Part shown: positions 18,364-55,566 of the stretch, piece after piece
Layout: each line of letters starts with the position of its first letter
How positions within the stretch are numbered: the first letter of the stretch is position 1
From: Dyella choica
Lineage (GTDB): Bacteria > Pseudomonadota > Gammaproteobacteria > Xanthomonadales > Rhodanobacteraceae
Direction of reading: 5' to 3'
Length of the DNA: 64,000 bases
Assembly (NCBI RefSeq): GCF_003977665.1
Contig: NZ_RYYV01000008.1
Location: 1 to 64,000 of the forward strand
The notes under the pieces: generated by a model
Databases searched by the model: none
Told to the model about the DNA's origin: nothing
What the model saw: only the letters and a program-made list of their open reading frames with translations
Position numbers and translations under genes: made by a program

Positions 18364-18534
18364 TGCCTTTTTGGCCCCCCGGCGTCACGTCGCGGCGCCC
18401 GTGCACCCCATCCTGCCGACTATGCAGGAACGGCCCGCACACATAGGCTGTGATGACCATCCCAGCATCGAGCGCAGTGCATGCATGGCCATGCCGGGGT
18501 TTGCACCCCGGCTTACGATGGTCCCCAGCGCACA

Positions 18535-19512: not shown

Positions 19513-19572
19513 TGCACACGGCGGGATGCACGCACGCCGCATGCGTCCCGCCTTCTCCAGGAGACTCTCGCC

Positions 19573-26641: not shown

Positions 26642-27273
26642 TAGGTGCGTGGCTCGATGCCCTTCCCCTGGTGGCGATTCTTCGCGGTATTCGGCCGGAG
26701 GAAGCGCTCGATATCGGTAACGCGCTGGCCGGGGCCCAATTCCGCCTGATCGAAGTGCCGCTGAATTCACCGGAGCCGTTCGAAAGCATCCGCCTGCTTT
26801 CGGCACAGCTCGGCCAGCACTGCCTAATCGGTGCCGGCACCGTGTTGCAGCCCGAACAGGTCACGCAGGTTGCCGCCGCGGGAGGTCGTCTGATCGTGAT
26901 GCCGCACGCGGATGTCCGTGTGATCACCGCCGCCAAACGCGCAGGAATGTATTGCGTGCCAGGCGTGGCCACGCCTACCGAGGCGTTTGCCGCCATCCAG
27001 GCCGGTGCCGATGCGCTCAAGCTGTTCCCCGCCGAATTGCTGGCGCCCCCTGTACTCAAGGCCTGGCGTGCGGTGATGCCGCGTGAGCTGGCGATGCTGC
27101 CGGTAGGCGGTATCACGCCGGAAAACATGGCCTCTTATATCGCCGCGGGCGCCAACGGCTTTGGCCTCGGCTCCGCCCTGTACGCACCCGGCCGCGATGC
27201 GGACGACGTCGGTCGTCGCGCCCACGCCTTCGCGCAAGCCTGGAAATCGAGTCTCCAAGGAAATCCTGCATGA
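26638..27273 (+). CDS. dgoA: 2-dehydro-3-deoxy-6-phosphogalactonate aldolase
   Basis: 211 residues, class I KDPG/KDPGal aldolase. [20 protein letters not shown] at the start, the catalytic Glu in [18 protein letters not shown], and the Schiff-base Lys in [13 protein letters not shown]. Splits KDPGal to pyruvate and glyceraldehyde-3-phosphate. The EVPLNSP block separates KDPGal from KDPG aldolases. Confidence 0.95.
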
Positions 27274-28418: not shown

Positions 28419-29203
28419 TGTCCACGAAGAGACCCCAGATGCCCATGTTCGCCACCTACCCCAGCCTGGTCGATCGCGCGGTATTGATTACCGGCGGCGC
28501 AACCGGCATTGGCGCCGCCTTCGTTACGCACTTTGCGCAGCAAGGCGCTCGCGTGGCCTTTCTCGACATCGATGAGCAGGGCGCCTCAGCCTTGCGCGAC
28601 GCCTTGCCGCAAGTACGTCATGCACCGCTGTTCCTTCCCTGCGACGTCACCGACATTGCGGCTCTGCGCAAATCCATCGCAACGGCCAGCCAGAGCATCG
28701 GCACGTTCGGAGTATTGGTCAACAACGCCGCCAACGATCGGCGACATCGTCTTGAGGACACGACGCCGGAAGAATTCGAACAGAGCGTCGCCGTCAACTT
28801 GCGCCACCAGTATTTCGCCACCCAGGCGGTAGTGCCCGGGATGCGCGAGCTAGGCGGCGGCTCGATCATCTGCCTGGGCTCCACCGGCTGGATGATCAAG
28901 AACGCCGGCTACCCGATGTACGCGATGGCGAAGTCGGCTGTGCGCGGCCTGGTCAACGGCCTGGCGCGCGAGCTGGGCAAGGACCGCATCCGCATCAACG
29001 CCCTGGTGCCCGGCTGGGTGATCACCGAGAAGCAGCGCGAGCTATGGCTGGATGAAGCCGGCGAGCAGGAAATCCGCAGCAAGCAATGCATGCCCGGATA
29101 TCTGGGCGCGGATGATCTGGCACGCGCGGCCTTGTTCCTGGCCGCCGATGACAGCCACATGTGCACCGGCCACGATTTTATCGTCGATGGCGGCTGGGCA
29201 TGA
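28418..29203 (+). CDS. SDR-family dehydrogenase, probable galactose 1-dehydrogenase
   Basis: 261 residues from an ATG that overlaps the dgoD stop; an ATG two codons earlier is possible. Rossmann glycine motif VLITGGATGIGAAF, VNNAAND, active-site Ser in ICLGSTGW and Tyr-x-x-x-Lys in MYAMAKS. In this operon the missing step is oxidation of galactose to galactonolactone, so that substrate is inferred; L-arabinose or fucose are alternatives. Confidence 0.85.
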   Translation: MSTKRPQMPMFATYPSLVDRAVLITGGATGIGAAFVTHFAQQGARVAFLDIDEQGASALRDALPQVRHAPLFLPCDVTDIAALRKSIATASQSIGTFGVLVNNAANDRRHRLEDTTPEEFEQSVAVNLRHQYFATQAVVPGMRELGGGSIICLGSTGWMIKNAGYPMYAMAKSAVRGLVNGLARELGKDRIRINALVPGWVITEKQRELWLDEAGEQEIRSKQCMPGYLGADDLARAALFLAADDSHMCTGHDFIVDGGWA

Positions 29204-30090
29204 GCCTGCAAGCAACATTGGTGCTGGACGCACGCAACACCCTGGGTGAAGGCGTGACCTGGTGCGTGCGCAGCCAGGCGCTGTACTGGACGGATATCCA
29301 TGCCTCCATGCTGTGGCGTTATCGCCCTGCCGATGGCAGCACGCGCCAGTGGACGATGCCCGAGCGCCTTGCTTCGTTCGCTTTGTGCGATGCGGCTGAC
29401 TGGCTGCTATTGGGATTGGCCAGCAGCCTGGCCTACTTCCACCTGGAAAGCGGCGAATTGATCCGCTTGGCTGAAGTCGAAGCCGGTCTGCCTACGCGGC
29501 TCAACGATGGCGCCTGCGACCGCCACGGGCGCTTTGTGTTCGGCACGCTGCATGAACCTGCCAGCGGCGAAGCACGGCGTGCTGCCGGTGCTTTCTATCG
29601 GCTACGCGCGGATCTGACGCTGGAACTGCTACCACTTGGACCGGTCGCGATCAGTAACAGCATCGCGTTCAGTCCCGAGGGCGGCACGATGTATTACTGC
29701 GATTCGTTCACGCGCATAGTTTGTCGCTGCAGCTACGGCGACAGCATCACCAAGCCTGAAGTGCATATCGACTTATCGCAAGCCCAAGGTGAGCCGGACG
29801 GGTCCGCGGTGGATAGCGAAGGCGGCTTATGGAATGCCGAATGGGGTTCCGGCCGCGTGGTGCGTTATACGCCCGACGGCAAGCAAGACTTGATCATCAC
29901 GCTGCCTGCCAGCCAGCCCACACGCGTGGCTTTCGGCGGCGAAAGATTGAACACGCTCTACATTACCAGCGCTCGGGACGGACTCAGCGCCGAAGCACTG
30001 GCGCAAGAGCCGCATGCCGGCGGGCTGTTTGCCGTCGAGGTGCCCTTCACCGGCATGCCCGAGCCACGTTTTGCAGGCCGGCCCATGTGA
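29200..30090 (+). CDS. SMP-30/gluconolactonase-family lactonase
   Basis: 296 residues, six-bladed propeller. Start overlaps the SDR stop (ATGA). Motifs NTLGEGVTWC (metal Glu), RLNDGACDRHGRFVFGTLHE (Asn and Asp region), ISNSIAFSPEGGTMYYCDSF and GEPDGSAVDSEGGLWNAEWGSGRVVRY identify the family. Expected to open galactono-1,5-lactone to galactonate, linking the dehydrogenase to DgoD. Confidence 0.9.
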   Translation: MSLQATLVLDARNTLGEGVTWCVRSQALYWTDIHASMLWRYRPADGSTRQWTMPERLASFALCDAADWLLLGLASSLAYFHLESGELIRLAEVEAGLPTRLNDGACDRHGRFVFGTLHEPASGEARRAAGAFYRLRADLTLELLPLGPVAISNSIAFSPEGGTMYYCDSFTRIVCRCSYGDSITKPEVHIDLSQAQGEPDGSAVDSEGGLWNAEWGSGRVVRYTPDGKQDLIITLPASQPTRVAFGGERLNTLYITSARDGLSAEALAQEPHAGGLFAVEVPFTGMPEPRFAGRPM

Positions 30091-30160
30091 GCCGGCTTTT
30101 TCTAGGCATTGGGAAGTAGCCGAAAACATCCGCTTGACGCGAACGACCGGGGAGTCATTC

Positions 30161-31573
30161 ATGAGTGTCAATACCATTCCAGCACCTGTCACAAGCCATT
30201 CGCATGCCAGGCCCCACGCCAAGGCCACTGCCATCTTCACCTGCGTGCTCGCCGCGCTGGCCGGCTTGATGTTCGGCCTGGACATCGGCGTGATTTCGGG
30301 CGCCACCCAGTTCATCCAGAAACAGTTCGGCGTCTCCGATCACCAGATCGAATGGATTGTCAGCGCCATGATGTTCGGCGCCGCGGTCGGCGCACTGTTT
30401 GCTGGATGGATGTCGTCCGCACTGGGGCGCAAACGCTCGCTGATTCTTGGTGCGGTGCTGTTCGTGGTCGGCTCATTGTTGAGCGGACTCGCCTGGTCGC
30501 CCGATACGTTGATCGCGGCGCGCGTGGTGCTGGGCCTGGCGATCGGCCTCGCCACCTTCACCGCACCGCTGTATCTGGCGGAAGTCGCACCTGAGTATAT
30601 TCGTGGCGCGATGATTTCGGTCTACCAGCTGATGATCACCATCGGTATCCTGGTCGCCTTCCTCTCGGATACGGCTTTCAGCTACACCGGCAACTGGCGC
30701 TGGATGCTCGGCATCATCGCGATCCCCGGCGCGCTGTTCCTGGTCGGCGTGCTGTTTCTCCCGGATAGCCCGCGCTGGCTGATGATGAAGCAACGCGAAG
30801 CGGAAGCGCTGGACGTACTGCAACGTCTGCGCGGCGATGCAGCCATCGTCGAGCGAGAAGCGAACGATATCCGCGAACAACTGCGCACGCCGCAACGCGG
30901 CTGGCACTTGTTCCAGGAAAACAGTAACTTTCGCCGTTCCGTGGGGCTGGGCATCCTGCTGCAGCTCATGCAGCAGTTCACCGGCATGAACGTGGTGATG
31001 TACTACGCGCCGCGCATCTTCCAGGACATGGGCTACGACCCCACGGCACAGATGTGGTTTACGGCCATCGTCGGCCTCACCAACGTCCTGGCTACCTTCA
31101 TCGCCATCGGCCTGATCGACCGCTGGGGCCGCAAGCCGATCCTTTATACCGGCTTTGCGGTGATGGCCGTCGGCCTCGGTGTGGTCGGAAGCATGATGGG
31201 CGTCGGCGCGAGTTCGCACGGCATGCAGCTGTTCACCGTGGGCATGCTGTTGGTATTCATCGTCGGCTTCGCGATGTCCGCCGGCCCGTTGATCTGGACC
31301 CTTTGCTCGGAAGTGCAGCCATTGAAGGGGCGCGACTTCGGCATCGGCTGCTCCACCATGACCAACTGGATTGCCAACATGATCGTTGGCTTCACTTTCC
31401 TCACCCTGCTCAACCGTTTTGGTCACACCAACACGTTCTGGCTCTACGCAGGACTCAATCTGGTCTTCATCGTACTGACCTTCTGGCTGGTGCCGGAAAC
31501 CAAGGGCATCACGCTAGAACAGATCGAGCGCAATCTGATGAGCGGCAAGCGGCTGCGCGACATCGGCCGCTGA
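30161..31573 (+). CDS. MFS sugar/H+ symporter (GalP/XylE type)
   Basis: 470 residues from an ATG with GGGGAG upstream; 12 TM helices. Sugar-porter signatures: GLMFGLDIGVISGA, GRKRSLILGAVLF, LYLAEVAPEYIRGAMI, DSPRWLM, RWGRKPILY and PETKG. Imports the hexose to be oxidised, most likely galactose. Last gene of the galactose operon, followed by an interspersed palindrome. Confidence 0.93.
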   Translation: MSVNTIPAPVTSHSHARPHAKATAIFTCVLAALAGLMFGLDIGVISGATQFIQKQFGVSDHQIEWIVSAMMFGAAVGALFAGWMSSALGRKRSLILGAVLFVVGSLLSGLAWSPDTLIAARVVLGLAIGLATFTAPLYLAEVAPEYIRGAMISVYQLMITIGILVAFLSDTAFSYTGNWRWMLGIIAIPGALFLVGVLFLPDSPRWLMMKQREAEALDVLQRLRGDAAIVEREANDIREQLRTPQRGWHLFQENSNFRRSVGLGILLQLMQQFTGMNVVMYYAPRIFQDMGYDPTAQMWFTAIVGLTNVLATFIAIGLIDRWGRKPILYTGFAVMAVGLGVVGSMMGVGASSHGMQLFTVGMLLVFIVGFAMSAGPLIWTLCSEVQPLKGRDFGIGCSTMTNWIANMIVGFTFLTLLNRFGHTNTFWLYAGLNLVFIVLTFWLVPETKGITLEQIERNLMSGKRLRDIGR

Positions 31574-34176: not shown

Positions 34177-35286
34177 TCACGTGCTGTAGGTGCGATCCTT
34201 CCAGCGCGAACGGACACCCCGCCAGTAGCGGATGGCCGAGCTCCAGGTCATGCCCAGATACAGCACGGCGCCGAACGGAAGCAGCAGCGCCCAGGCCAGC
34301 CGCATGTGGTAGTAGCGCAGCATCGGAAGGTAGCTCAGCATCATGGCGACCAACGCGAGCAGGCCCATGCGCCAGGTAGCCGGCGAAGCCAACAGCAGGA
34401 AAGGCAGGCCATAGGAAATCGCAAACAACACGGTTACCACCAGCAGCAGCAGGGTGGAGTAGCCGAGCTGGGTGAAGGCCGAGCGCGCCACCATGTCGTG
34501 AATCGAGCGCAAGCTGCCATAGGGACGAAGACTTACCACGCCGCGGCTCAGGCCCAGCCAGGTGCGATAGCCGGCATTTTTCACCTGTCGCGCCAAGGTG
34601 CAGTCGTCGATCAACGCATTGCGCAGGCTGGCAAAGGCGCCGGCACGCTGCAGTGCTTCTGAGTCGACCAGGATGCAACCGCCTGCCGCAGCGGCGACCA
34701 GACGCGAGGATGAATTGGAGATCGAGAAGGGATAGATCAGCTTGAAGTAGTACACGAACGCCGGTAGCAGCAGGCGATCCCAGAAGCTGGTGCGCCTCAG
34801 GTCCGCCATCAGCGAGACGAACTGGCGGTTTTCGCGCTGCTTGTGTGCCAGCAATGCGGGCAGCAATCCCGGTTGCAATTGAATGTCCGCGTCCAACAGC
34901 AGCGTCATCGGCGTATGCACGTGCGCCCTGCCCTGCTCCAGCGCCCACAGCTTGCCTGCCCAACCTGCCGGCAACGCTTGACCACGGATCACGCGTACGT
35001 TCGGGAAGGAGGCGGCGATTTTCGCCGTATCGTCAGTCGACTGATCGTCTACCACGACCACTTGCAAGCCATGGCCCTGCGCCTGCAGGCCGGACAGCGT
35101 GAGGCCGATGACATCGGCCTCGTTGCGCGCAGGAATCAATACGGTGATCTGGCTCAGATCGGCCGGCCCGGTCCGCGGGTCGGCCTCGATGCGTTCACGC
35201 GTGCTCCAGGCCCGCCACGGTGTCAGTAGCAGGCCTACCCACATCAGCGCCGGCAGCGACGCGGCAATCCATCCCACTGTGCCCAT
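34177..35286 (-). CDS. hpnB: Hopanoid-associated glycosyltransferase HpnB
   Basis: 369 residues. Glycosyltransferase family 2 fold: ITVLIPARNEADVIGLTLSGL, VVVVDDQSTDDT, LLLDADIQLQPG and LIDDCTLARQVK, between an N-terminal and several C-terminal TM helices. The combination and its place 21 bases behind hpnH identify HpnB. Its exact acceptor in hopanoid synthesis is not established. Confidence 0.9.
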   Translation of the reverse strand: MGTVGWIAASLPALMWVGLLLTPWRAWSTRERIEADPRTGPADLSQITVLIPARNEADVIGLTLSGLQAQGHGLQVVVVDDQSTDDTAKIAASFPNVRVIRGQALPAGWAGKLWALEQGRAHVHTPMTLLLDADIQLQPGLLPALLAHKQRENRQFVSLMADLRRTSFWDRLLLPAFVYYFKLIYPFSISNSSSRLVAAAAGGCILVDSEALQRAGAFASLRNALIDDCTLARQVKNAGYRTWLGLSRGVVSLRPYGSLRSIHDMVARSAFTQLGYSTLLLLVVTVLFAISYGLPFLLLASPATWRMGLLALVAMMLSYLPMLRYYHMRLAWALLLPFGAVLYLGMTWSSAIRYWRGVRSRWKDRTYST

Positions 35287-35307: not shown

Positions 35308-36450
35308 TTAGTGGTTCGCTTCGGTACCGGTCTCAGCGCTGCGGCGCTGAATCGAGCTGATCGGAATGTGGATCGCCGTGGCGTCCGCACGATTGCCATA
35401 CTTAACCGGCAGATCAGGCGCCATCGGGCCATCGGTACGCGGACCGAACATCGACACCTTCAGCGCTTTCAGCGGATGGGCGAACATGTCGTCCACCGCC
35501 GTGCCCTCGAAACCGCAGTGCGCCATGCAGTTGTCGCACTTCGGATTGATGCCCACGCCGTACTTGTCCCACTCGGTATCTTCCATCAATTCCTTGTAGG
35601 TCTTGGCGTAGCCTTCGTCGACCAGCAGGTAGCACGGCTTCTGCCAACCGAAGATGTTGTAGGTGGGGTTGGACCACGGCGTGCACTGGTAGGCCTGGTT
35701 GCCCGCGATGAAGTCCATGAACATCGCCGACTGGTTGAACGCCCACTTGCGCTTGCGTTCCTTGCCGATCTTGAAGATGTCGCGGAACAGCTGCTTGCTC
35801 TCGGTGCGGCCCAGGAACACGTCCTGGCGCGGCGCATGCTGGTAGCTGTAGCCCGGCGACACGGTGATGCCTTCCACGCCCAGCTCCATCGCGTAGTCGA
35901 AGAAATCGGCCACTTCTTCCGGCGGCTCGCTGTTGAACAGCGTGCAGTTCACCGTGACGCGGAACCCCTTCGACAGCGCAAGCTTGATCGCTGTCACCGC
36001 CTTCTCGAACACGCCATCCATGCAAACGGATTTGTCATGCTGCTTTTCCAGGCCGTCCAGGTGCACCGACCAGGTGAAGTACGGCGACGGCTTGTACTCG
36101 TCGATGTGCTTGGGCAGCAGGATCGCGTTGGTGCACAGGTACACGAACTTCTTGCGCGCCACGATACCTTCGACGATCTTCGGCAGATCCTTGTGGATCA
36201 GCGGCTCGCCGCCGGGGATCGACACCACCGGAGCATCGCACTCGTCCACCGCGGCCAGCGCCTGCTCGACGCTCATGCGCTTTTGCAGGATTTCCTTCGG
36301 CTGATCAATCTTGCCGCAACCGGCGCAAGCCAGATTGCACTGGAACAGCGGCTCCAGCATCATCGCCAGCGGGTAGCGCTTCTGGCCGCTCAGCTTCTTC
36401 TTGAGGATGTAGCTGGCGATCGTGGTTTGCTGAATAAGAGGGATACCCAA
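35308..36450 (-). CDS. hpnH: Adenosyl-hopene transferase (radical SAM) HpnH
   Basis: 380 residues from a TTG start with GGAG upstream (MGIPLIQQTTIASYILKKKL matches family N-termini). Radical SAM [4Fe-4S] motif CNLACAGC, SIPGGEPLIH, and C-terminal Cys cluster CDNCMAHCGFEG. Adds 5-deoxyadenosyl to diploptene, giving adenosylhopane, the first side-chain step. hpnG, which acts next, lies 20 kb away on the other strand. Confidence 0.97.
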   Translation of the reverse strand: MGIPLIQQTTIASYILKKKLSGQKRYPLAMMLEPLFQCNLACAGCGKIDQPKEILQKRMSVEQALAAVDECDAPVVSIPGGEPLIHKDLPKIVEGIVARKKFVYLCTNAILLPKHIDEYKPSPYFTWSVHLDGLEKQHDKSVCMDGVFEKAVTAIKLALSKGFRVTVNCTLFNSEPPEEVADFFDYAMELGVEGITVSPGYSYQHAPRQDVFLGRTESKQLFRDIFKIGKERKRKWAFNQSAMFMDFIAGNQAYQCTPWSNPTYNIFGWQKPCYLLVDEGYAKTYKELMEDTEWDKYGVGINPKCDNCMAHCGFEGTAVDDMFAHPLKALKVSMFGPRTDGPMAPDLPVKYGNRADATAIHIPISSIQRRSAETGTEANH

Positions 36451-36565: not shown

Positions 36566-37165
36566 TTAAGCTTGGCGCGGCGCGAAGACTTCGGGGTGTT
36601 CGCGACGAATCCGCTGCCACTCGATCTTGAACCAGGGCGTGAAGGCTTCGGGCTTAGCCGCCATCTCCGCGTCGAGCGCATCCGGAGCGATGTAGCGCAG
36701 GCCGGAAATCTCGTTCACGTTCACCGTAGGCGCGGCGTCGCTGCGGCCGGCATACACCCAGCACAACTCATGCTCGGCCCCGTCCGCGTCGAATTGCGCC
36801 TGATACTCGAACTTGAACAGATAGTTCAGTTCGCAAGCCAGACCCAGCTCTTCCTTCAGGCGACGATGAGTGGCGCTATCCACCGTCTCGCCGCGGCGAG
36901 GATGGCTGCAGCAGGTATTCGACCAGTAACCCGGCCACAGGCGCTTGCCCGCTGCGCGCTGCTGCAATAACAGCTCGCCTTTCGCATTGAACACGAACAG
37001 CGAGAACGCACGGTGCAGGGTGCCCTTGCCGACGTGCGCGGCTGCCTTGTCGAGGAAGCCGACATCCCGGTCGTCATGGTCGACCAGGATCAGCGGTTCG
37101 TCGTCGAACGACACCACCTCGTTCGAATCGCGCCACTCCTGGCGCTCGAGTTCTGTGTTATCCAA
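36566..37165 (-). CDS. idi: Isopentenyl-diphosphate delta-isomerase, type I
   Basis: 199 residues, starting at TTG 37165 (GGAGG six bases upstream), which overlaps the end of the fused HMGR/MK gene by eight bases. Nudix-type core: LHRAFSLFVFN, the active-site Cys in WSNTCCSHPRRGE, RRLKEELGL, and the catalytic Glu region EHELCWVYAGR. Interconverts IPP and DMAPP. Idi is essential when IPP is made by the mevalonate route, matching its place in this operon. Confidence 0.95.
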   Translation of the reverse strand: MDNTELERQEWRDSNEVVSFDDEPLILVDHDDRDVGFLDKAAAHVGKGTLHRAFSLFVFNAKGELLLQQRAAGKRLWPGYWSNTCCSHPRRGETVDSATHRRLKEELGLACELNYLFKFEYQAQFDADGAEHELCWVYAGRSDAAPTVNVNEISGLRYIAPDALDAEMAAKPEAFTPWFKIEWQRIRREHPEVFAPRQA

Positions 37166-39440
37166 TCTCGACCTCCATCGCCTGATAGCCGGCGTCGCGA
37201 ATCGCGGCCACTACCTTTTCGCGGTTTTGCGGGCACAGCGCGACGATCGAGCCGCCGCCGCCGCCGCCCGTGAGCTTGGCGCCCAGGGCGCCGTGTTCGC
37301 GTGCGATCTGCACCAGTTCTTCCACTTCCCAGCTCGACACGCGCAGCGCGTTGAGCAGACCGTGGCAGATGTTCATCAGATCGCCAAGGCGTTCCAGATC
37401 GTATTGCTGCATGGCATCCACGCCTTGCAGCGTGAGTGCGTCGATCTGCTGGAAAATGCCGTCATACAGAGCCGGATTGCGCTGCCATGCCGTGCGCACC
37501 TTGCCCACCGTTACGGCAGTGAGGCTTTCCTTGCCACTGATGCCGATCACCAGTGGAATGCGCTTGGGCAGATGGAGCTCGCGCACCATCGGCTGCTCGC
37601 CCTTCTTGCCAGCGCGCTTGTACAGCAACGGCTTGCCGTAGGTGGCCACTGTGTTGTCGATGCCGGAGGCCGAGCCATGCGCCACTTCTTCGCAACGGAA
37701 AGCCAGTGCGTTGATCTCTTCATCGTTCAAGCCCAGCTTGTAATGCTGGTCGAGCGCGCGGATCACCGCCACCGCCATCGCCGCCGAACCGCCCAGGCCC
37801 ATCGCACGCGGCACATTCGGGAACACTTCGATGCGCATCGAGCGATCGGTCAGCTGCAGCTCGTCGAAAATGATGCCGAGCGAGCGCTGGAACGAATCGC
37901 GATGCGCCGGATCACGATGCAAGCGGTATTCCACGCCCCAGCGCGGGATGAACATGTCGACGCCGCCGGACTTGGTGTCCTGCGCCACCGCGCGCACGGC
38001 AAGCGGCACCGGCGCGGCAACGGCATGGCTACCGTAGACGACGGCATGCTCGCCGAGCAGGATGATCTTGCCGTGCCCGCAGGCCCGATGGTCGACCGAA
38101 GGTTGCTCCGCCGTCGTTGCCGGCACTCCGCGCGACTCCTTGCGCACCTGCTCGACAATCTCCTGCGCTTTCCAGATCTTGATCTCGCCGGTTTCCACTA
38201 GGCGCTCCACCACGGTGTCGAAGATTTCCGGCGTGGCACCTGCCGCCACGGCAACACTGCGCGCATGCAGGGTCATGTGGCCTTGCTGGATACCTTCGGT
38301 GACCAGCGCGCGCAGGGCGGAGAAATTCTGTGCCAGACCGACCGCGCCCATGATCTCGGCCAGTTCGCGCGCCGTCTTCACGCCGAGCAGGCGCAGATTC
38401 AGTGCCACGGTGGCGTTCGATTGCAGCGGACCGCCAACCGTGCCGACCTTCATCGGAATGTCCAGCTCGCCGATCAGCTCGCCCTTCTCGCCCTTGTACC
38501 AGCGCGTGAGCGAGGTGTAGCGGCCACCGCGCGCAGCATACGCATGCGCAGCTGCTTCGATCGCGCGCCAGTCGTTGCCGGTTGCCAACGCCACGGCATC
38601 AACGCCGTTCATGATGCCCTTGTTGTGCGTCGCTGCACGGTACGGGTCGATGCTGGCGAACTCGTTCGCGAGCACGATGCCGTCGCGCACTTCCTCGCCC
38701 TCGAAGCCCTTGCCGGTGAGCTGGTCGGCGGGGATCACGCAGCGCGCGCGCACCATCGAGCGATCGGTGAGATTGGAAAGAATGCGCAGGAACACGCGCC
38801 CGCCGGTCATCGTTTCGACCAGCGAGGCAATCCCCTCGCACATTGTATTGACCAGGTTGGCGCCCATCGCGTCGCGCGTGTCGACCAACAGATGCAGCAC
38901 CAGCATGTCGCCGCCTTCGGGGCGCGGATGCACGTGCACTTCCAGATCCTGCGCGCCGCCGCCACGCGCCACCATCTGCGGATGCAGGCTGTTGGCGAGA
39001 TTGAGCAGTTCGTCCTTGCGCTGGAGCAGAGTGGCCTTGGCGTGCGCCAGATGCGGCACGTCCACCACTTGCACCTGGCCGATCAGCACCGGTTCGGTGC
39101 TCTCGACCGTGAAGCCACCGGTACCGCGCACCAGCTTGGCCGCCGACGACAGGGCCGCGACGATCGAGGGCTCCTCCACCACCAGCGGCACGATGTAGTC
39201 GCGGCCGTTGACCAGGAAGTTCAGGCCCAGCCCCACCGGCAACCCCATCACGCCGACGACGTTTTCGATCATCTTGTCGGCTTTGTGAATCTTCAGCGTG
39301 TGATCACCGGAGACCAGAGCCTGATAATCCTCGGCCGACAACCAGCCGCGCTCATGGATGATGCGTACACGGTCGGATACCGAGAGTTTGTAGAAAGCGG
39401 GAAATCGGGACCGTTCGGCACTCGATGGTTCGGCGCTCAT
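37158..39440 (-). CDS. Fused class II HMG-CoA reductase / mevalonate kinase
   Basis: 760 residues from the ATG at 39440 (AAGG upstream). Residues 1 to about 435 are a class II HMG-CoA reductase: ENVVGVMGLP (catalytic Glu59), AATHNKGIMNG (Lys274), TGNDWRAIE (Asp290) and MTLHARS (His392). From about 450 to the end is a GHMP mevalonate kinase: HGKIILLGEHAVVYG, the ATP loop PRAMGLGGSAAM (about 545-555), ASGIDNTVATYGKPL and GALGAKLTGGGGGGS. Both active sites are complete, joined by a short linker. The two successive steps (HMG-CoA to mevalonate to phosphomevalonate) thus sit on one chain. I know no well-described precedent for this fusion. The frame is continuous, so it is not an artefact of ORF calling. 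Confidence 0.93.
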   Translation of the reverse strand: MSAEPSSAERSRFPAFYKLSVSDRVRIIHERGWLSAEDYQALVSGDHTLKIHKADKMIENVVGVMGLPVGLGLNFLVNGRDYIVPLVVEEPSIVAALSSAAKLVRGTGGFTVESTEPVLIGQVQVVDVPHLAHAKATLLQRKDELLNLANSLHPQMVARGGGAQDLEVHVHPRPEGGDMLVLHLLVDTRDAMGANLVNTMCEGIASLVETMTGGRVFLRILSNLTDRSMVRARCVIPADQLTGKGFEGEEVRDGIVLANEFASIDPYRAATHNKGIMNGVDAVALATGNDWRAIEAAAHAYAARGGRYTSLTRWYKGEKGELIGELDIPMKVGTVGGPLQSNATVALNLRLLGVKTARELAEIMGAVGLAQNFSALRALVTEGIQQGHMTLHARSVAVAAGATPEIFDTVVERLVETGEIKIWKAQEIVEQVRKESRGVPATTAEQPSVDHRACGHGKIILLGEHAVVYGSHAVAAPVPLAVRAVAQDTKSGGVDMFIPRWGVEYRLHRDPAHRDSFQRSLGIIFDELQLTDRSMRIEVFPNVPRAMGLGGSAAMAVAVIRALDQHYKLGLNDEEINALAFRCEEVAHGSASGIDNTVATYGKPLLYKRAGKKGEQPMVRELHLPKRIPLVIGISGKESLTAVTVGKVRTAWQRNPALYDGIFQQIDALTLQGVDAMQQYDLERLGDLMNICHGLLNALRVSSWEVEELVQIAREHGALGAKLTGGGGGGSIVALCPQNREKVVAAIRDAGYQAMEVEIG

Positions 39441-39532: not shown

Positions 39533-40630
39533 TCACGTCAAAATCCTTGCGGGGGAGGGAATCGCATCCGGGCGCATATGGCAGCTCACACCGCGGGAAT
39601 CAAGGCCCAGGGGAACGACGTGCATACCGGCCGACACAATGGCTCGTTCAAATGTCGCCAACCTTTCCGCGTCCTGGGCAAACACCACCCCGAAGTCGCC
39701 GCCGGCGCCGCAAGGCTTATAGCTGACATCGCTACCGGAAGCCATATCGGCGAGCTGTTTTTGTGCGGGGGAATAGATTTCCAGTCCGCAAGCGGCGCCG
39801 AAGCGCTGCAAGCCCCGCGCATAATCACGCGTAAGCTCTATGAAAGATGGCATGCGCCGCTGCTTCAGCGCGTCGATCGCAGCAGCGGAAACGATGCCCA
39901 GTTCGCTCATATGTGCGGCGTAATCGCCTGCATGGGCCTGGCGCCATTGCGCCAAACGCTGCAGCGAATCGCTGGTGGAAACCGACTGCCCCGACCAAAC
40001 GAACAGGCAGTTCAGACCGTCCGCTGAAATCGACTCGTAGGCGGGTTCGCGATCGGAGCCCACCAGCTGGTAGCTGATCAAGCCACCGGCCACGCTGGCC
40101 GCCACGTCCACTCCGCTGCCCCGGCCGCCTTGCCAGCCCCCATGCATGTGCAGCAGCCGCCGCATCCAGCCCAGGCGATCGGTCATGACATCGCCATGGC
40201 CGGCATAAGTGGCCAGGGCGGAAGCGAGCGCCACGGTCAGTGCTGCGCTGGATCCGAGCCCCAGTTTGGAGCGCACGCCTCCATCCGTATGAAAGAAACC
40301 GGACGTATCCAACTGCAGGTCGAAACCGGCCGCCGATACTGGCGCCAGGTCTTCGCGCAGCATGCCATGCCACACGTGATCGACCAACGTAAGCTTGGCC
40401 TTGGTCGCTTCGTCGCATTGCCATTGCAGGCGCCCATCGCTGCCGACAAGGGCCCGCGCCTCACTGATGTCAAGGTCCGGCGCACTGACATTGCACACGC
40501 AATCGGCGCGCGAAACGATGCGTACATGGGCACGGCGATCCACTGCCAGCACCAGGGCGCGCGCGCCCTCCAGCACGGCGTAGTCGCCAAGCAGCACCAG
40601 CTTGGCAGGTGCTTCGGCGGTGACTTCCAT
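39533..40630 (-). CDS. Phosphomevalonate kinase (GHMP family)
   Basis: 365 residues from the ATG at 40630, which overlaps the mvaD stop (TGATG) and has GGAGG at the right distance. GHMP motifs: APAKLVLLGDYAVLEG, KLGLGSSAALTVALASAL and KPCGAGGDFGVVF. ATP-dependent formation of mevalonate diphosphate. By position between mvaD and the HMGR/MK fusion it supplies the missing kinase of the classical mevalonate pathway. Confidence 0.9.
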   Translation of the reverse strand: MEVTAEAPAKLVLLGDYAVLEGARALVLAVDRRAHVRIVSRADCVCNVSAPDLDISEARALVGSDGRLQWQCDEATKAKLTLVDHVWHGMLREDLAPVSAAGFDLQLDTSGFFHTDGGVRSKLGLGSSAALTVALASALATYAGHGDVMTDRLGWMRRLLHMHGGWQGGRGSGVDVAASVAGGLISYQLVGSDREPAYESISADGLNCLFVWSGQSVSTSDSLQRLAQWRQAHAGDYAAHMSELGIVSAAAIDALKQRRMPSFIELTRDYARGLQRFGAACGLEIYSPAQKQLADMASGSDVSYKPCGAGGDFGVVFAQDAERLATFERAIVSAGMHVVPLGLDSRGVSCHMRPDAIPSPARILT

Positions 40631-41658
40631 CACGCCTCCACCCAGTCCAAGGCAATCGCGCGGGCGCCTTCGCCGAGGCCAGTGTCAAGCACTTCCAGCA
40701 CGCCCGGCACATCGCGCAGGGCCGCTTTCACCTGCTCGATCGCCGACGGTGCACACACGGCCTTGAGCTGCGGACCGGCATCGACGGTGAAGAACACAGG
40801 CACACCTTGTTGGCGCAGGGCACGCACGCGATGCATGCATTCCACCGTGGCGCCGTTCCAATAGAGCAGGCCCGGCTGTGCCGCCAGCGCCAGCGCGTGC
40901 ATCTTCAGGCAGCTGTATTCGGAAATGCGCGCCAGCGCGTCGAAATCGCGCGCACGAATCGCATCACGTGCCACGCCGAGGTCCGCTTCCTGGGTCTCGA
41001 TCCATGCGGACTGATAAGGCGAAGTTTCCGCCGTACGGCGCATGCCTTCCGTGGAGCCCACCTGCTTGGCCGCGGTGGAGGTGATCGCCACCGCGACACG
41101 CAGCGGCCACGCCTCGGCGTCAAGCAGCGGGCGCGCAACCGAATCGGTGCCGTCGGCCAGCTTGCCGTGCGCCCATTCCACGTAGCCGCCGAAGATCGAA
41201 CGTGCTGCCGAACCCGAGCAGCGGCGCGCCAGCACGGACTGCTCCGCCAGGCTCAGCTCGAGACCCAGCGCACGCGCACCGGCATGCACCAGTGCGGCAA
41301 AGCCGGAGGCGGAAGAAGCCAGCCCCGCCGCCGTGGGAAAGTTGTTGCGGCTCGCAACCTCTGCACCGTAGTCGACGCCAGCGCACGCGCGCAGCAGGTC
41401 GAGGCACTTGCTGATGCGCTTGGCTTCGGCCTCATCGCTGCGTCCATTGAGGCTGACGCGATCGCCTTGTTGCCCCGGCACGAAGCGCACGTCCGTACGT
41501 GTCCACAGGCTTTCCAGCGTAATGGAGAGGGAGCCGACGACCGGCAGGTTCAAGGCGGCGTCGCGCTTGCCCCAGTACTTGACCAGGGCGATGTTGGGCT
41601 GTGCCTGGGATGCAGCACGCAGTTCACCGGATACGCCGGTGCTCGGTTTGCGATTCAT
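40630..41658 (-). CDS. mvaD: Diphosphomevalonate decarboxylase
   Basis: 342 residues. Family signatures NIALVKYWGKRD, SLSITL, NNFPTAAGLASSASGFAAL, the SGSAARSIFGGYVEW block and the catalytic Asp in VFFTVDAGPQ. Converts mevalonate diphosphate to IPP with loss of CO2. First enzyme gene of the minus-strand mevalonate operon mvaD - pmk - HMGR/MK - idi. Confidence 0.95.
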   Translation of the reverse strand: MNRKPSTGVSGELRAASQAQPNIALVKYWGKRDAALNLPVVGSLSITLESLWTRTDVRFVPGQQGDRVSLNGRSDEAEAKRISKCLDLLRACAGVDYGAEVASRNNFPTAAGLASSASGFAALVHAGARALGLELSLAEQSVLARRCSGSAARSIFGGYVEWAHGKLADGTDSVARPLLDAEAWPLRVAVAITSTAAKQVGSTEGMRRTAETSPYQSAWIETQEADLGVARDAIRARDFDALARISEYSCLKMHALALAAQPGLLYWNGATVECMHRVRALRQQGVPVFFTVDAGPQLKAVCAPSAIEQVKAALRDVPGVLEVLDTGLGEGARAIALDWVEA

Positions 41659-42347: not shown

Positions 42348-43502
42348 ATGTCCTTTAACTGGTTGGTCGACACCCTGGTTCATGCACTAGGCATCGCGCT
42401 TGCGTTCGCCGCGACGGGCTATGCCTGCGTCGCGCTTTGGGCCGTAACGAAAGGATCACGAAAGACTCACCCCGTTTCTGCTCCAGCTGGCACACCGCGA
42501 CCGGCGAGTGTACTCAAGCCTTTGCATGGTACCGAGCCGAGGCTGTATGAAAACTTGCGCAGCTTTTGCCAGCAGACGCACCCGGATTATCAACTGGTAT
42601 TCGGCGTGCGTGAGGCCGACGACCCGGCCATTGCCGTGGTCGAACGTCTGCGCCGGGAATTCCCGCAGCTGCCCATGGCACTGGCGATCGATTCGCGCGT
42701 GCATGGCGCGAACTTCAAGGTCAGCAACCTGATCAACATGCTGCCGCATGCGCGGCACGACCACCTGGTGCTGGCCGATGCCGACATCCACGTACAGCCC
42801 GATTACCTGACGCGCGTCACTACGCCACTGGCCGATAGCGACGTGGGCATCGTCACTTGCCTGTATTACGGCCGGCCAGGGCCTTCGCTGTGGTCGCGGC
42901 TTGGCCGTCTATTCATCGACGATTGGTTCGCCCCTTCCGTCAAGCTTTCCCATGCCTTCGGCTCGACTCGCTTCGCCTTCGGCTCGACCATCGCTTTGCG
43001 CCGCAACGCGCTTGCAGCCATCGGCGGGTTTGCCGCCCTGCGCGACACTCTGGCCGATGATTTCTGGCTGGGCGAGCTGACCCGTCGCGCCGGCTTGCGC
43101 ACGGTGCTGTCGGACGTAGTGGTCGGCACCGATGTCGGCGAAAGCCAATTGAAAGATTTGTGGTCGCACGAGCTGCGCTGGCTGCGCACCATACGCTCGA
43201 TCGCGCCCGCGGGCTTTGCCATGACTTTCGTGTGCTTTGCGTCACCCTTGCTGGGCTTGGGCCTGTGCCTGGCGCCAGGGCCTACGAGCGGGAGCCTTGC
43301 CCTGCTCGGTGGCGCAGCGCGGGTTTTGCTACACTTTTTACAGCGGCGCTTCAGCGATCGAGCCTTCGCCTGGCATGAGGTCCTGTTGATTCCCCTCCGC
43401 GACACCTTATTGCTGATGGAATGGGCAGCCGCCCTGGCTGGTTGGCAGGTAAGATGGCGCGGGCAGGTACTGCACGCACGAGGCGACGGTTCAGCGCCGT
43501 AG
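42348..43502 (+). CDS. hpnI: Hopanoid glycosyltransferase HpnI
   Basis: 384 residues. N-terminal TM helix, GT2 catalytic domain (SVLKPLHGTEPRLYENLRSF, VLADADIHVQPDYL, the DDFWLGELTRRAG block) and C-terminal TM helices. HpnI adds N-acetylglucosamine to bacteriohopanetetrol. First gene of hpnI-hpnJ-hpnK-hpnL, the standard order for hopanoids with a composite (glucosaminyl or cyclitol ether) head group. Confidence 0.93.
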   Translation: MSFNWLVDTLVHALGIALAFAATGYACVALWAVTKGSRKTHPVSAPAGTPRPASVLKPLHGTEPRLYENLRSFCQQTHPDYQLVFGVREADDPAIAVVERLRREFPQLPMALAIDSRVHGANFKVSNLINMLPHARHDHLVLADADIHVQPDYLTRVTTPLADSDVGIVTCLYYGRPGPSLWSRLGRLFIDDWFAPSVKLSHAFGSTRFAFGSTIALRRNALAAIGGFAALRDTLADDFWLGELTRRAGLRTVLSDVVVGTDVGESQLKDLWSHELRWLRTIRSIAPAGFAMTFVCFASPLLGLGLCLAPGPTSGSLALLGGAARVLLHFLQRRFSDRAFAWHEVLLIPLRDTLLLMEWAAALAGWQVRWRGQVLHARGDGSAP

Positions 43503-43576: not shown

Positions 43577-45004
43577 ATGAAAACGCTTTTTCTGCAAGCT
43601 CCTTCCTTCGATGGCTTTGATGGCGGCGCGGGTTCGCGCTACCAGGCCAAACGCGAGATCAAGAGCTTCTGGTATCCGACCTGGCTGGCGCAGCCGGCGG
43701 CGATGGTGCCCGATTCGCGCGTGCTCGATGCGCCGGCCGACGAGATCTCGGTCGAAGACAGCCTGAAGATCGCCGAGGGCTATGACCTGGTGATCATCCA
43801 CACCAGCACGCCATCGTTCCCGACCGACGCGAAGTTCGCCGAGCTGCTCAAGGCACGCAAGCCGAACGTACTGATCGGCCTGGTTGGCGCCAAGGTTGCA
43901 GTGGACCCCACCGGCTCGCTCATGGCTTCGCCCGCGGTCGATTTCGTCGCCCGCGAAGAATTCGACTACACCTGTAAGGAAGTGGCCGAAGGCCGTCCGT
44001 TCGAAAGCATCACCGGCATCAGCTACAAGCTGGCCGACGGCTCCGCGCAGCACAATCCGCCGCGCGCGATGATCGAGAACATGGACGACCTGCCGTTCGT
44101 GGCGCCGATCTACAAGCGCGACCTGAAGATCAGCAACTATTTCATCGGGTATCTCAACTATCCGTACGTGTCGATCTACACCGGCCGCGGCTGCCGCTCC
44201 AAGTGCACGTTCTGCCTGTGGCCGCAGACCGTCGGCGGCCATCGCTACCGCACGCGCTCGGCCGCCAACGTGCTGGCCGAGGCGAAGTGGATCAAGGAGA
44301 ACATGCCCGAAGTGAAGGAGCTGATGTTCGACGACGACACCTTCACCGACAGCTCCAACATGGAGCGCGTGCACGAGATCGCGCGCGGCCTGGGCGCCAT
44401 GGGCTGGACCTGGTCTTGCAACGCCAAGGCGAACGTGCCCTACGAGTCGTTGAAGATCATGAAGGAAAACGGCCTGCGCCTGCTGCTGGTGGGCTACGAA
44501 TCGGGCGACGACCAGATCCTGCACAACATCAAGAAGGGCCTGCGCACCGACATCGCGCGCCGCTTCACCGAAGACTGCCGCAAGCTGGGCATCACCATCC
44601 ACGGCACCTTCATCCTCGGCCTGCCGGGCGAAACCAAGGAAACGATCGAAAAGACGATCCAGTTCGCCAAGGAAATCAACCCGCACACCATCCAGGTGTC
44701 GCTGGCGGCACCGTATCCGGGCACCTCGCTGTACAAGCAGGCGGTCGAGAACGGCTGGCTGAAGGAAAACGAAGCGGTCAACCTGGTCAACGACAAGGGC
44801 GTGCAGTTGGCGCTGATCGAGTACCCGCATCTGTCGAAGCAGGAAATTTTCCACGGCGTGGAGAAATTCTACCGGGCCTTCTATTTCCGCCCGTCGAAGA
44901 TCTGGGAAATCGTCAAGGAAATGCTGATGAGCTGGGACATGATGAAGCGCCGTCTGCGCGAAGGCGTGGAGTTCTTCCGCTTCCTGCGCGCGCACGAAGC
45001 CTGA
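43577..45004 (+). CDS. hpnJ: Hopanoid radical SAM protein HpnJ
   Basis: 475 residues, GGAG before the ATG. N-terminal B12-binding-like domain, then the radical SAM motif GRGCRSKCTFCLWPQ, GYESGDD and TFILGLPGET. HpnJ is required for the cyclitol-ether head group, acting on the glucosaminyl-hopanoid made by HpnI and HpnK. Confidence 0.95.
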   Translation: MKTLFLQAPSFDGFDGGAGSRYQAKREIKSFWYPTWLAQPAAMVPDSRVLDAPADEISVEDSLKIAEGYDLVIIHTSTPSFPTDAKFAELLKARKPNVLIGLVGAKVAVDPTGSLMASPAVDFVAREEFDYTCKEVAEGRPFESITGISYKLADGSAQHNPPRAMIENMDDLPFVAPIYKRDLKISNYFIGYLNYPYVSIYTGRGCRSKCTFCLWPQTVGGHRYRTRSAANVLAEAKWIKENMPEVKELMFDDDTFTDSSNMERVHEIARGLGAMGWTWSCNAKANVPYESLKIMKENGLRLLLVGYESGDDQILHNIKKGLRTDIARRFTEDCRKLGITIHGTFILGLPGETKETIEKTIQFAKEINPHTIQVSLAAPYPGTSLYKQAVENGWLKENEAVNLVNDKGVQLALIEYPHLSKQEIFHGVEKFYRAFYFRPSKIWEIVKEMLMSWDMMKRRLREGVEFFRFLRAHEA

Positions 45005-52420: not shown

Positions 52421-53593
52421 ATGATCGAATTCAACAATGCCACCGCCGGTAACGGAAGCGGGGAGGCCGACACCTATCAGGATGCGATCCTGCCGAAGGT
52501 ATCCCGGACTTTTGCGCTGACCATCCCGCAGCTCCCGCCGGAGCTGCGCCGCGCCGTTGCGAACGCGTATTTGCTATGCCGCATCGCCGACACCATCGAA
52601 GACGAACCGGTATTCTCGGCCGAGCAGAAGCGCTCGTTCGAGAACGCCTTCGTCCAGGCGGTGATCGGGGACGCCGATCCGCAGGAGGTGGCGGACGAAA
52701 TCGCCCCCCTGCTTTCGAGCAGCACGCTGGATGCCGAACGCGACCTCATGCAGCAGTTGCCGCTGGTGCTCGAAGTCACGCGCAGCCTCTCGCCGTCGCA
52801 GCAGGCGTCGATCGTCAAGTGCCTGCGCATCATGTCGCACGGCATGCACGACTTTCAGCGCAAAGCCGGCCTGCATGGCTTGCCCACGCTGCATGACATG
52901 GACCGTTACTGCTATTGCGTGGCCGGTGTCGTCGGCGAAATGCTGACGGAGCTGTTCGTCGACTTCGAACCGCTGCTCGCCCCCCACCGCAACGCCATGC
53001 TGCAGTTGGCGGTGTCGTTCGGCCAGGGCCTGCAGATGGTCAACATCCTCAAGGACCAGTGGGAAGACCGTGCACGCGGCGCCTGCTGGCTGCCGCAAGA
53101 CCTGTTCGCGCGTCACGGCGTGAAGCTCGCCACGCTGCAATCCGGCACGCAGAACGCCGGCTACGCCGCCACCATGTCCGAGCTGGTCGGCATCGCCCAC
53201 GCGCATCTGCGCCAGGCGCTGGACTACACCCTGCTCATTCCCACCAAGCACGCCGGCATCCGGCGCTTCTGCTTGTGGGCCATTGGCATGGCAGTGCTGA
53301 CGCTGCGCAAGCTGCAACAGAACCTCGATTTTTCCGCGGGGGTGCAGGTCAAGATCTCGCGTAAGGATGTCGCCCGCACCATCCTGCTGACGCGCGTGCT
53401 GTGCAAGTCGAACTCCGGCCTGCGCTGGCTGTTCGCGATGAGCGCGCGCGGCTTGCCGCTGACGCCCCTGACGGCGGAATGGAGCGAGCCTTCCACACCC
53501 GCCCGCACCTGGCCCAAGCGCTCCATTCCGCACATTGCCGACGCCGCCGCCTGGCGCGAGCCGGCCGATGTCGAGGAAGCAGGACAGCGATGA
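52421..53593 (+). CDS. sqs: Squalene synthase (single-enzyme type)
   Basis: 390 residues, longer than HpnC or HpnD (about 280-300). Two Asp-rich motifs: DTIEDE (57-62) and NILKDQWEDRARGACWLP (Asp212, Asp216). Also SRTFALTIPQLPPELRRAV and VAGVVGEMLTELF. A C-terminal extension of about 90 residues includes a hydrophobic segment. This architecture is that of one-step, NADPH-dependent squalene synthases, so FPP is probably turned directly into squalene rather than by HpnCDE. Its end overlaps the cyclase start by four bases. Confidence 0.88.
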   Translation: MIEFNNATAGNGSGEADTYQDAILPKVSRTFALTIPQLPPELRRAVANAYLLCRIADTIEDEPVFSAEQKRSFENAFVQAVIGDADPQEVADEIAPLLSSSTLDAERDLMQQLPLVLEVTRSLSPSQQASIVKCLRIMSHGMHDFQRKAGLHGLPTLHDMDRYCYCVAGVVGEMLTELFVDFEPLLAPHRNAMLQLAVSFGQGLQMVNILKDQWEDRARGACWLPQDLFARHGVKLATLQSGTQNAGYAATMSELVGIAHAHLRQALDYTLLIPTKHAGIRRFCLWAIGMAVLTLRKLQQNLDFSAGVQVKISRKDVARTILLTRVLCKSNSGLRWLFAMSARGLPLTPLTAEWSEPSTPARTWPKRSIPHIADAAAWREPADVEEAGQR

Positions 53594-55566
53594 ATCCTTT
53601 CACGCCCAAGACCGCTGCCGTCGCCTCCGACGATCTGTTCCAGGCTGCCCAAAGCAGCACGCTGGACCAGGTGATCGAGCGCGGCCGTGCCGCCTTGCTG
53701 GCGCGCCAGCACCAAGATGGCCACTGGTGCTTCGAGCTGGAATCGGACTGCACCATCACCGCCGAATACATCCTGATGATGCACTTCATGGATGACATCG
53801 ACGACGTACTGCAGGAGAAAATGGCGCGCTACCTGCGCGCCACGCAGGCAAAGGCCAAGCACGGTGGCTGGTCGCAATATTACGGCGGCGACCTCGACCT
53901 GTCTTGCACGGTGAAGGCCTATTACGCCCTTAAGGCCGCGGGCGACGACACGCAAGCCGAACACATGCGCATCGCGCGCGAGGCCATTCTCGCGCACGGT
54001 GGAGCGGCCAAGGCCAACGTGTTCACGCGCATCCTGCTGGCGCTGTTCGAGCAGGTGCCATGGCGCGCCACGCCTTATGTACCAGTGGAAATCATGCTGC
54101 TGCCGCGCTGGTTTCCGTTCCACATCGAGAAGATTTCGTACTGGGCGCGCACCACGCTGGTACCGCTCACCATCCTTTGTTCGCTGAAGGCCAAGGCGGC
54201 CAATCCGCGCAAAGTGCATATCCGTGAGCTGTTCGTTACGGCGCCAGAGCAGGAACGCCATTACTTCGTTCGCGGCGGCCTGCTGAATCGCTGCTTCCTG
54301 GCGCTGGACAAACTCGGCCGCAGCTGCGATCGCCTCATTCCGAAGTCGCTGCGCCAGCGTGCCGTAAAGAGGGCCGTCGACTGGTTCATGCCGCGCCTGA
54401 ATGGCGAAGACGGCATCGGCGCGATCTTCCCGCCGATGGTCAACAGCCTCGAAGCGATGGCCCTGCTCGGCTATCCCAAGGATCATCCCGCGCGGCAAAC
54501 CTGCTTGCGTTCGATCCAGAAGCTGGTCGTGCATCGCGCCGATGGCTCGGCCTATTGCCAGCCCTGCGTGTCACCGATCTGGGACACGGTGTGGAGCGCG
54601 CTTACGCTGATGCACACCAGCGACGACGCGCAGACGCAAGGCGCCATCGACAAGTCGATCGACTGGTTCGTCTCCAAGCAGGAGCTGGAACTCAAGGGCG
54701 ACTGGGCCGTTCGTGCGCCGGACCTCAAACCGGGTGGCTGGGCATTCCAGTACAACAATGCCTATTACCCCGACATCGACGACACCGCGGTGGTCGCCGC
54801 CTTGCTGCACATCCAGGATCGCCGCCGCGGCGAACCCGGCCGGCATCGCCTGAACGTCGATCGCGCCGCAGACTGGATGATCGGCCTGCAGTCCAGGAAC
54901 GGCGGCTTCGCCGCTTTTGACGCGGACAACACCTACTACTACCTCAACGCAATTCCGTTCGCCGACCACGGCGCCCTGCTCGATCCTCCGACCGAGGACG
55001 TATCGGGTCGCGTTGCCGCGGCCCTTGGAGTGCTGGGCCGTCCGCAAGACGCCCAGGCGTTGCGTCGCTGCGTCGATTATCTGCGCGACACGCAACTCGA
55101 GGACGGCAGTTGGTGGGGCCGCTGGGGCAGCAACTACATCTACGGCACCTGGAGCGTCCTGGCTGGCCTTGCGCTGGCCGGTGAAGATCCCTCCCAGCCA
55201 GCCATTCGCAAGGCGGTTCAGTGGCTGCGTTCGCGCCAGAACGCCGATGGCGGTTGGGGCGAGACCAACGACAGCTATATCGATCCAGCCTTGCGCGGCA
55301 CCCACGGCGGAATCAGCACCTCGCAATCGACAGCGTGGGCGTTGCTGGCGCAGATGGCGGTCGGCGAGGTGCGTACGGAATCGGTACGCCGCGGCATCGA
55401 GTTCCTGCTTGACCACCAGCAGCCGGATGGTTTCTGGTCCAACCCCACGCACAATGCGCCCGGTTTCCCGCGCGTGTATTACCTGAAGTACCACGGCTAT
55501 ACCGCGTACTTTCCGCTATGGGCGCTGTCGCGCTATCGCCAGTTGCTGTCATCGGCCCAGGCTTGA
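53590..55566 (+). CDS. shc: Squalene-hopene cyclase
   Basis: 658 residues, standard length. The protonating DxDD motif is DIDD at 395-398; several QW repeats are seen (DGHWCFELES, GGWAFQYNN, NGGFAAFD, DGSWWGRWG, DGGWGETND, DGFWSN). Cyclises squalene to hopene/diplopterol at the membrane. Also called hpnF. Coupled to sqs by an ATGA overlap and to hpnG by a TTGA overlap. Confidence 0.98.
   Translation: MNPFTPKTAAVASDDLFQAAQSSTLDQVIERGRAALLARQHQDGHWCFELESDCTITAEYILMMHFMDDIDDVLQEKMARYLRATQAKAKHGGWSQYYGGDLDLSCTVKAYYALKAAGDDTQAEHMRIAREAILAHGGAAKANVFTRILLALFEQVPWRATPYVPVEIMLLPRWFPFHIEKISYWARTTLVPLTILCSLKAKAANPRKVHIRELFVTAPEQERHYFVRGGLLNRCFLALDKLGRSCDRLIPKSLRQRAVKRAVDWFMPRLNGEDGIGAIFPPMVNSLEAMALLGYPKDHPARQTCLRSIQKLVVHRADGSAYCQPCVSPIWDTVWSALTLMHTSDDAQTQGAIDKSIDWFVSKQELELKGDWAVRAPDLKPGGWAFQYNNAYYPDIDDTAVVAALLHIQDRRRGEPGRHRLNVDRAADWMIGLQSRNGGFAAFDADNTYYYLNAIPFADHGALLDPPTEDVSGRVAAALGVLGRPQDAQALRRCVDYLRDTQLEDGSWWGRWGSNYIYGTWSVLAGLALAGEDPSQPAIRKAVQWLRSRQNADGGWGETNDSYIDPALRGTHGGISTSQSTAWALLAQMAVGEVRTESVRRGIEFLLDHQQPDGFWSNPTHNAPGFPRVYYLKYHGYTAYFPLWALSRYRQLLSSAQA

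Follow-up and report, generated by a model that had tools for sequence, protein, structure and literature searches.

A fused HMG-CoA reductase–mevalonate kinase gene, predicted to encode a bifunctional enzyme, in Dyella choica and related bacteria

The fusion gene and its two domains

The first 64,000 nucleotides of contig NZ_RYYV01000008.1 of Dyella choica (assembly GCF_003977665.1), hereafter the window, carry a gene in which 3-hydroxy-3-methylglutaryl-CoA (HMG-CoA) reductase (HMGR) and mevalonate kinase (MK) are joined in a single polypeptide (Table 1). The minus-strand frame from 39440 to 37158 is unbroken by stops, with a possible alternative start at a TTG at 39467, and it is the continuous 760-codon frame described in the initial annotation, which left the strand unstated; a plus-strand reading of 37158–39440 is ruled out by a stop inside it. 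Both halves of the described product, a class II HMGR followed by a complete GHMP mevalonate kinase, are recovered above curated cut-offs, TIGR00532 matching residues 5–393 with 417 bits (cut-off 260) and TIGR00549 matching residues 456–735 with 234 bits (cut-off 163), and PF00368 adds 368 bits for the HMGR half (cut-off 27). A Pfam scan of the fusion protein gave the same two blocks as NCBIfam, and no thiolase domain. When the protein was compared with the sequences of solved structures, the HMGR match, closest to P. mevalonii-type enzymes, reached residue 433, and those nearest to the kinase half were mevalonate kinases, the Leishmania major enzyme (2HFS) first among them. A Foldseek search with the predicted model returned HMG-CoA reductases as matches 1–42 and mevalonate kinases as the next eight listed.

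Table 1. Features of the fusion gene and of its mevalonate and hopanoid neighbours in the window
Feature	Position	Strand	Remarks
HMG-CoA reductase–mevalonate kinase fusion gene	37158..39440	-	760 codons, ATG start at 39440
Class II HMGR domain	38142..39440	-	residues 1-433
Cofactor-helix motif H153-P-Q-M-V-A-R159	38964..38984	-	close to NADPH-type (H/Y)xSxxxR
Tether between HMGR and MK	38079..38141	-	residues 434-454, unconserved
GHMP mevalonate kinase domain	37161..38078	-	residues 455-760
Diphosphomevalonate decarboxylase	40630..41658	-	TIGR01240 292 bits, cut-off 171
Probable phosphomevalonate kinase (GHMP kinase)	39533..40633	-	best NCBIfam TIGR01220 81 bits, below cut-off 166
Type 1 isopentenyl-diphosphate isomerase	36566..37165	-	TIGR02150 above cut-off
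Adenosyl-hopene transferase HpnH	35308..36450	-	TIGR03470 536 bits, cut-off 225
HpnB-like glycosyltransferase	34177..35286	-	TIGR03469 370 bits, just below cut-off 379
HpnI glycosyltransferase	42348..43502	+	TIGR03472 458 bits, cut-off 310
HpnJ radical SAM protein	43577..45004	+	TIGR03471 834 bits, cut-off 578
Squalene-synthase-like protein	52421..53593	+	TIGR01559 128 bits, below cut-off 287
Squalene-hopene cyclase	53401..55566	+	TIGR01507 811 bits, cut-off 431

Catalytic residues and cofactor helix

In an alignment with the class II HMGR of Pseudomonas mevalonii, residues E90, K274, D290 and H388 of the fusion fall on E83, K267, D283 and H381, which are named as the catalytic residues of that enzyme (PMC12292504). 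Of the four catalytic residues first assigned, Lys274 and Asp290 stand, and the remaining two are replaced by Glu90 and His388; Glu59 and His392 were rejected as a catalytic pair, both being conserved yet lying outside the aligned P. mevalonii set. Of 89 aligned fused rows, 88 cover E90, K274 and D290, and each of these residues is conserved in all 88; H388 and, in the kinase half, K458, S552 and D595 are conserved in all 89. These rows are not independent, as some come from identical or almost identical genomes (L087 and L029 share one genome, and L088 and L089 have the same junctions as L070 and L080). The kinase half also carries a glycine-rich loop, GLGGSAA, that fits the GLGxSAA of GHMP mevalonate kinases, whose catalytic Lys and Asp are matched by K458 and D595. 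The reductase half ends in a flap domain (residues ~384–433, limits drawn by analogy with PMC12292504) that has H388 at its start, and the kinase is joined to its end.

In 88 fused rows, the cofactor helix has H153 in 87 and R159 in all, and the serine position of the NADPH-type motif is occupied by Q, K, N or R in 87 (Q155 in the D. choica fusion). In 19 stand-alone HMGR rows the first helix position is A (ten rows), D (six), L (two) or I (one); arginine at the last position also occurs in 13 of the 19, and is therefore not special to the fusion. PMC12292504 aligns five NAD(H)-dependent HMGRs with Asp at the cofactor site and four NADP(H)-dependent class II enzymes with Tyr or His there, and reports a 53.7-fold gain with NADPH when this Asp of the Ruegeria enzyme is replaced by Lys; the helix motifs Dx(V/L)xxxL for NADH and (H/Y)xSxxxR for NADPH are cited in PMC13370337. 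NADPH is thus the cofactor predicted for the fusion from its sequence, and the 'degradative' label of its best family model is probably misleading.

Distribution and origin of the fusion

Screening of named genomes yielded 219 relatives, of which the best 80 were examined. They come from Dyella (up to 98%), Nevskia, Wenzhouxiangella, Marinobacter gelidimuriae, Litchfieldella, Thermoanaerobaculales and others, and many are metagenome-assembled genomes (MAGs) with potentially misleading bin names. The two genes are joined in every one of the 80: in 79 the frame is uninterrupted as far as the contig goes (including L013, L026 and L050, which run off the end), and L014 has an in-frame stop inside the HMGR half. 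The fusion is present in at least 26 of 147 genomes of the host's family, in all 26 as one open frame, and in all 12 genomes seen of the host's genus. A sample of 369 genomes drawn evenly from the class held the full fusion in at least nine (host included), one more cut by a contig end, and stand-alone class II HMGRs, 34–52% identical, in at least 18; in the phylum of a Thermoanaerobaculales genome the full fusion was found in at least seven of 396, with one contig-end cut and one stand-alone HMGR. Family, class and phylum counts are lower bounds because few candidates were scored per genome (at most seven in the family fusion search and two in the class and phylum searches); for dxr, ispG and the host's own HMGR, MK and thiolases, all first-pass candidates were scored in the rows listed.

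The suggestion that orthologues might always be two separate genes, raised in the initial annotation as a possible objection, fails, since fusion is the rule in the clade and it is the distant HMGRs (34–52%) that stand alone. No stand-alone orthologue was seen inside the clade, the partial candidates G327 (L095) and G769 (L143) being contig-end cuts. A plasmid collection yielded 37 matching records, none covering 80% of the query, and the 15 listed cover 51–62%. Two copies of the fusion occur in locus L078, where the second copy is truncated at the end, and two also in genome G921.

Quick maximum-likelihood trees separate 42 fused from 20 stand-alone rows for the HMGR half (support 97) and 42 fused from 18 stand-alone rows for the MK half (support 99); removal of two long rows from each leaves the HMGR clade at 97 and lowers the MK clade to 89. 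Fused tree rows comprised 38 of the 89 together with L136, L139, L141 and L142. The interrupted L014 was left out of alignments and trees, L112, L114 and L115 out of the stand-alone HMGR set, and L122, L134 and L115 out of the kinase tree; L117 had no kinase hit, and L137, L138, L140, L143 and L145 were unused in the trees. Since each half forms a single clade, one old fusion that was then passed on whole, by descent and by transfer, is likely and offers the simplest reading; it is also present in Acidobacteriota. Rows from Acidobacteriota, Marinobacter and Litchfieldella nest among Gammaproteobacteria in both trees, which suggests transfer of the fusion between lineages. HMGR-half and MK-half distances rise together (Spearman 0.78 over 38 rows); since the pairs share rows, a p value carries no meaning for this correlation.

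The host pathway and apparent loss of the MEP route

On the minus strand the decarboxylase, the probable phosphomevalonate kinase, the fusion and the isomerase follow one another in operon-like order, the first possible start of the isomerase (TTG) overlapping the fusion stop. By tblastn in the 80 related loci, many of which are cut by contig ends, the isomerase was found in 77, a phosphomevalonate-kinase-like gene in 75, the decarboxylase in 68 and HpnH in 40. Searching the whole D. choica genome gave a single match to class II HMGR and a single mevalonate kinase above the 163-bit cut-off, each time the fusion; the MK model also matched, far more weakly, the phosphomevalonate-kinase-like neighbour (63 bits) and, in another part of the genome, a fragment (30 bits). 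Four thiolases exceed their cut-off in this genome. A genome search did not find HMG-CoA synthase in the window, and a divergent candidate lies on another contig (L084:4757–6376), above the Pfam and below the NCBIfam cut-offs; its assignment is supported by homologues, 47–50% identical, that sit downstream of HpnB in the flanks of 9 of the 80 loci. Within L084:3324–6376 this candidate adjoins a terpene synthase family 2 gene.

Neither dxr nor ispG, the two genes from which loss of the methylerythritol phosphate (MEP) pathway was judged, was found by searching the D. choica genome, which is 99.96% complete. Among the 26 fusion genomes of the family dxr is absent from 19 (one by elimination), over the cut-off in four (G038, G039, G043, G136) and below it in three (G115, G135, G145), whereas 119 of the 121 family genomes without the fusion have a match, the two lacking one being 82–85% complete. 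Similarly, ispG is missing from 22 of the 26 (three by elimination) and present in 117 of the 121, where the four exceptions are 76–85% complete (G037 as listed; G129, G139 and G142 by elimination). One fusion genome, G128, has ispG without dxr. The reverse is seen in G038, G115, G135 and G145 (same genus), where a dxr match, over the cut-off in G038 and below it in the others, occurs without ispG, and the dxr-like gene is therefore a remnant or has another function. In a broader collection of 39 entries with the fusion, most of unspecified kinship, which includes the host genome and counts one genome twice, dxr is over the cut-off in six (Marinobacter gelidimuriae and Litchfieldella among them), a fragment in one and absent from 32. 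The fusion and loss of the MEP pathway thus usually, though not always, go together. Because the host has neither dxr nor ispG, and 22 of the 26 fusion genomes have no ispG, the mevalonate route with the fusion is, on this gene content, probably the sole isoprenoid route of the host and of most fusion bacteria.

A probable bifunctional enzyme and its proposed mechanism

The reading that we favour, with a probability of about 0.88, is a natural bifunctional HMGR–MK enzyme in the host's sole route to isopentenyl and dimethylallyl diphosphate (IPP and DMAPP). The genomes themselves display the fusion, its intact active sites, the operon-like order, a host without dxr and ispG, and the single clade; from these we infer both activities, use of NADPH, a forward pull, the sole route and its products. 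The initial annotation had proposed a bifunctional enzyme, and this proposal gains strong sequence support from active sites that are invariant in the rows covering them and from the status of the gene as the genome's only class II HMGR match and only MK above the cut-off.

The N-terminal class II HMGR would reduce HMG-CoA to mevalonate, probably with NADPH, and the C-terminal GHMP kinase, held behind the flap by a flexible tether of ~20 residues, would phosphorylate mevalonate with ATP. Joined in this way, the two activities would be set at a ratio of 1:1, and mevalonate would be trapped as 5-phosphomevalonate near the reductase, pulling its reversible reaction forward. Together with the neighbouring probable phosphomevalonate kinase, decarboxylase and isomerase, and with thiolases and the HMG-CoA synthase candidate encoded elsewhere, the fusion would constitute the sole IPP/DMAPP route, the products of which may feed hopanoids, quinones and the cell-wall lipid carrier.

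Several observations weigh against this reading. Two proposed pathway members, the phosphomevalonate kinase neighbour and the HMG-CoA synthase candidate, fall below NCBIfam cut-offs. The NADPH motif is matched at H and R, but the fusion has Q in place of the central Ser; in addition, TIGR00532, the family model that scores best, is labelled 'degradative' (NAD). A GTG preceded by AAGGA lies at residue 439, inside the tether, and a separate kinase could therefore also be made. Finally, three fusion genomes (G039, G043, G136) keep both dxr and ispG, so that the fusion is not the sole route there.

A more far-reaching version, in which a single old fusion gave rise to one NADPH-using enzyme that moved between phyla with its operon, allowing MEP loss, and in which a kinase riding on the moving flap couples the two catalytic cycles, is put forward tentatively, at odds well short of even. 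Since the kinase is attached to the end of the flap that carries the catalytic His, coupling of their motions is conceivable, though speculative.

The tether, possible channelling and alternative readings

The bifunctional enzyme could act through true substrate channelling, as the initial annotation had suggested it may, mevalonate being handed on between the two active sites by the moving flap or across a fixed interface. The enzymes are consecutive and fused throughout the clade as sampled, and the kinase follows the flap domain that bears the catalytic His; the correlated half-to-half distances described above would also be expected, although shared descent alone would give the same. The tether tells against it: median identity to the D. 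choica fusion over the fused rows is 16% there, as opposed to 76% in the reductase and 63% in the kinase, and the spacing between alignment columns 425 and 460 varies from 27 to 44 residues. An AlphaFold model (46 alignment rows), with a mean predicted local distance difference test score (pLDDT) of 79.7, shows two folded parts and a tether where pLDDT falls below 50 at residues 438–450; its predicted template-modelling score (pTM) of 0.50 yields no fixed domain arrangement, the model being of one chain, whereas the enzyme functions as a dimer. Poor conservation, variable length and probable disorder of the tether thus favour a flexible leash, providing fixed stoichiometry and nearness, over a built tunnel, and we regard channelling as unlikely, at about one chance in five.

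Less probable still is that the halves are also made as separate products, a free mevalonate kinase arising besides the fusion by internal initiation or tether cleavage. The GTG at residue 439 of the D. choica fusion and its upstream AAGGA resemble a ribosome-binding arrangement, and a start with a Shine-Dalgarno-like site occurs near the junction in 32 of 80 rows, compared with 17% of 900 control windows. Even so, 48 of the 80 rows are without such a start, the excess may reflect one inheritance since the rows are related, and ATG is rarer near the junction (22 of 80 rows) than in control windows (68%).

It is very improbable that the reductase is a degradative, NADH-type enzyme of mevalonate catabolism, as the name of its best NCBIfam model would have it. 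Its nearest stand-alone relatives in the tree do include the P. mevalonii type, but it is joined to a mevalonate kinase among biosynthetic neighbours, in a host without dxr and ispG, and its cofactor helix carries H and R rather than D and L. The weakest alternative, an assembly or sequencing artefact in which a missed stop or frameshift joined adjacent genes, can be considered refuted: HMGR and MK genes are often adjacent, a lost stop could fuse them, and L014 has its in-frame stop (inside HMGR), but the same joined frame recurs in independent genomes (25 others of the family, isolates and MAGs of several groups among the named genomes, as well as 7 of 396 in the phylum of a Thermoanaerobaculales genome), which excludes the error at 38100–38200 that the initial annotation had contemplated.

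Relation to known systems and significance

Both enzyme families are known, and their fusion is apparently undescribed in the open-licence literature, in agreement with the initial remark that no well-characterised example was known; no description was found there, most subscription papers falling outside that scope, nor is an HMGR–MK fusion mentioned in the passages searched of PMC13001223, PMC10663253 and PMC13370337. The P. mevalonii class II HMGR (1QAX, 4I4B) shares the fold, ~52% identity and the four catalytic residues with the reductase half, but stands alone and has D146/L148 (NADH type) in place of H153/Q155, with no kinase following it. Likewise, the mevalonate kinases of L. major (2HFS) and Methanosarcina mazei (6MDE) share the fold and ~31% identity with the kinase half and are stand-alone enzymes. 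In bacteria, MvaE is a fusion of acetoacetyl-CoA thiolase and HMGR, and like the present protein it joins a class II HMGR to an adjacent pathway step; here, however, the partner is the later enzyme, a kinase, placed C-terminally, and there is no thiolase domain. IspDF is another natural bacterial fusion of two isoprenoid-pathway enzymes, although it belongs to the MEP pathway and unites non-consecutive steps (PMC13001223).

HMG-CoA reductase has been described as rate-determining for the mevalonate pathway (PMC12292504). A natural HMGR coupled to the next step would offer isoprenoid engineering a ready-made pull, and a clean test of whether joining enzymes speeds flux. The fusion also marks a set of bacteria, among them Dyella, Nevskia and Wenzhouxiangella; many of these seem to have given up the MEP pathway in favour of the mevalonate pathway, with hopanoid genes often lying close by. 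In most carriers the fusion is probably the gateway to all isoprenoids.

Hopanoid and other genes of the window

Hopanoid genes lie on both sides of the mevalonate gene row (Table 1), and HpnK and HpnL are also near it. No paper on mevalonate or hopanoid genes in Dyella or Xanthomonadales was found in the open-licence literature. For the squalene-synthase-like protein beside the squalene-hopene cyclase, the single-enzyme squalene synthase model outscores HpnC and HpnD, all three remaining under their cut-offs.

Elsewhere in the window, 18481–21206 (+) holds a bufferin-type metallophore cluster, composed of a frame (18481–19512) whose C-terminal part matches BufA2, a BufB maturase (19573–20430) and a DUF2063 protein (20427–21206). 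A set of genes for galactonate-type sugar catabolism occupies 24972–31573 (+) and includes a GntR-type regulator, 2-keto-3-deoxy-galactonokinase, an aldolase and galactonate dehydratase, along with a dehydrogenase, an SMP-30-like lactonase and a sugar porter.

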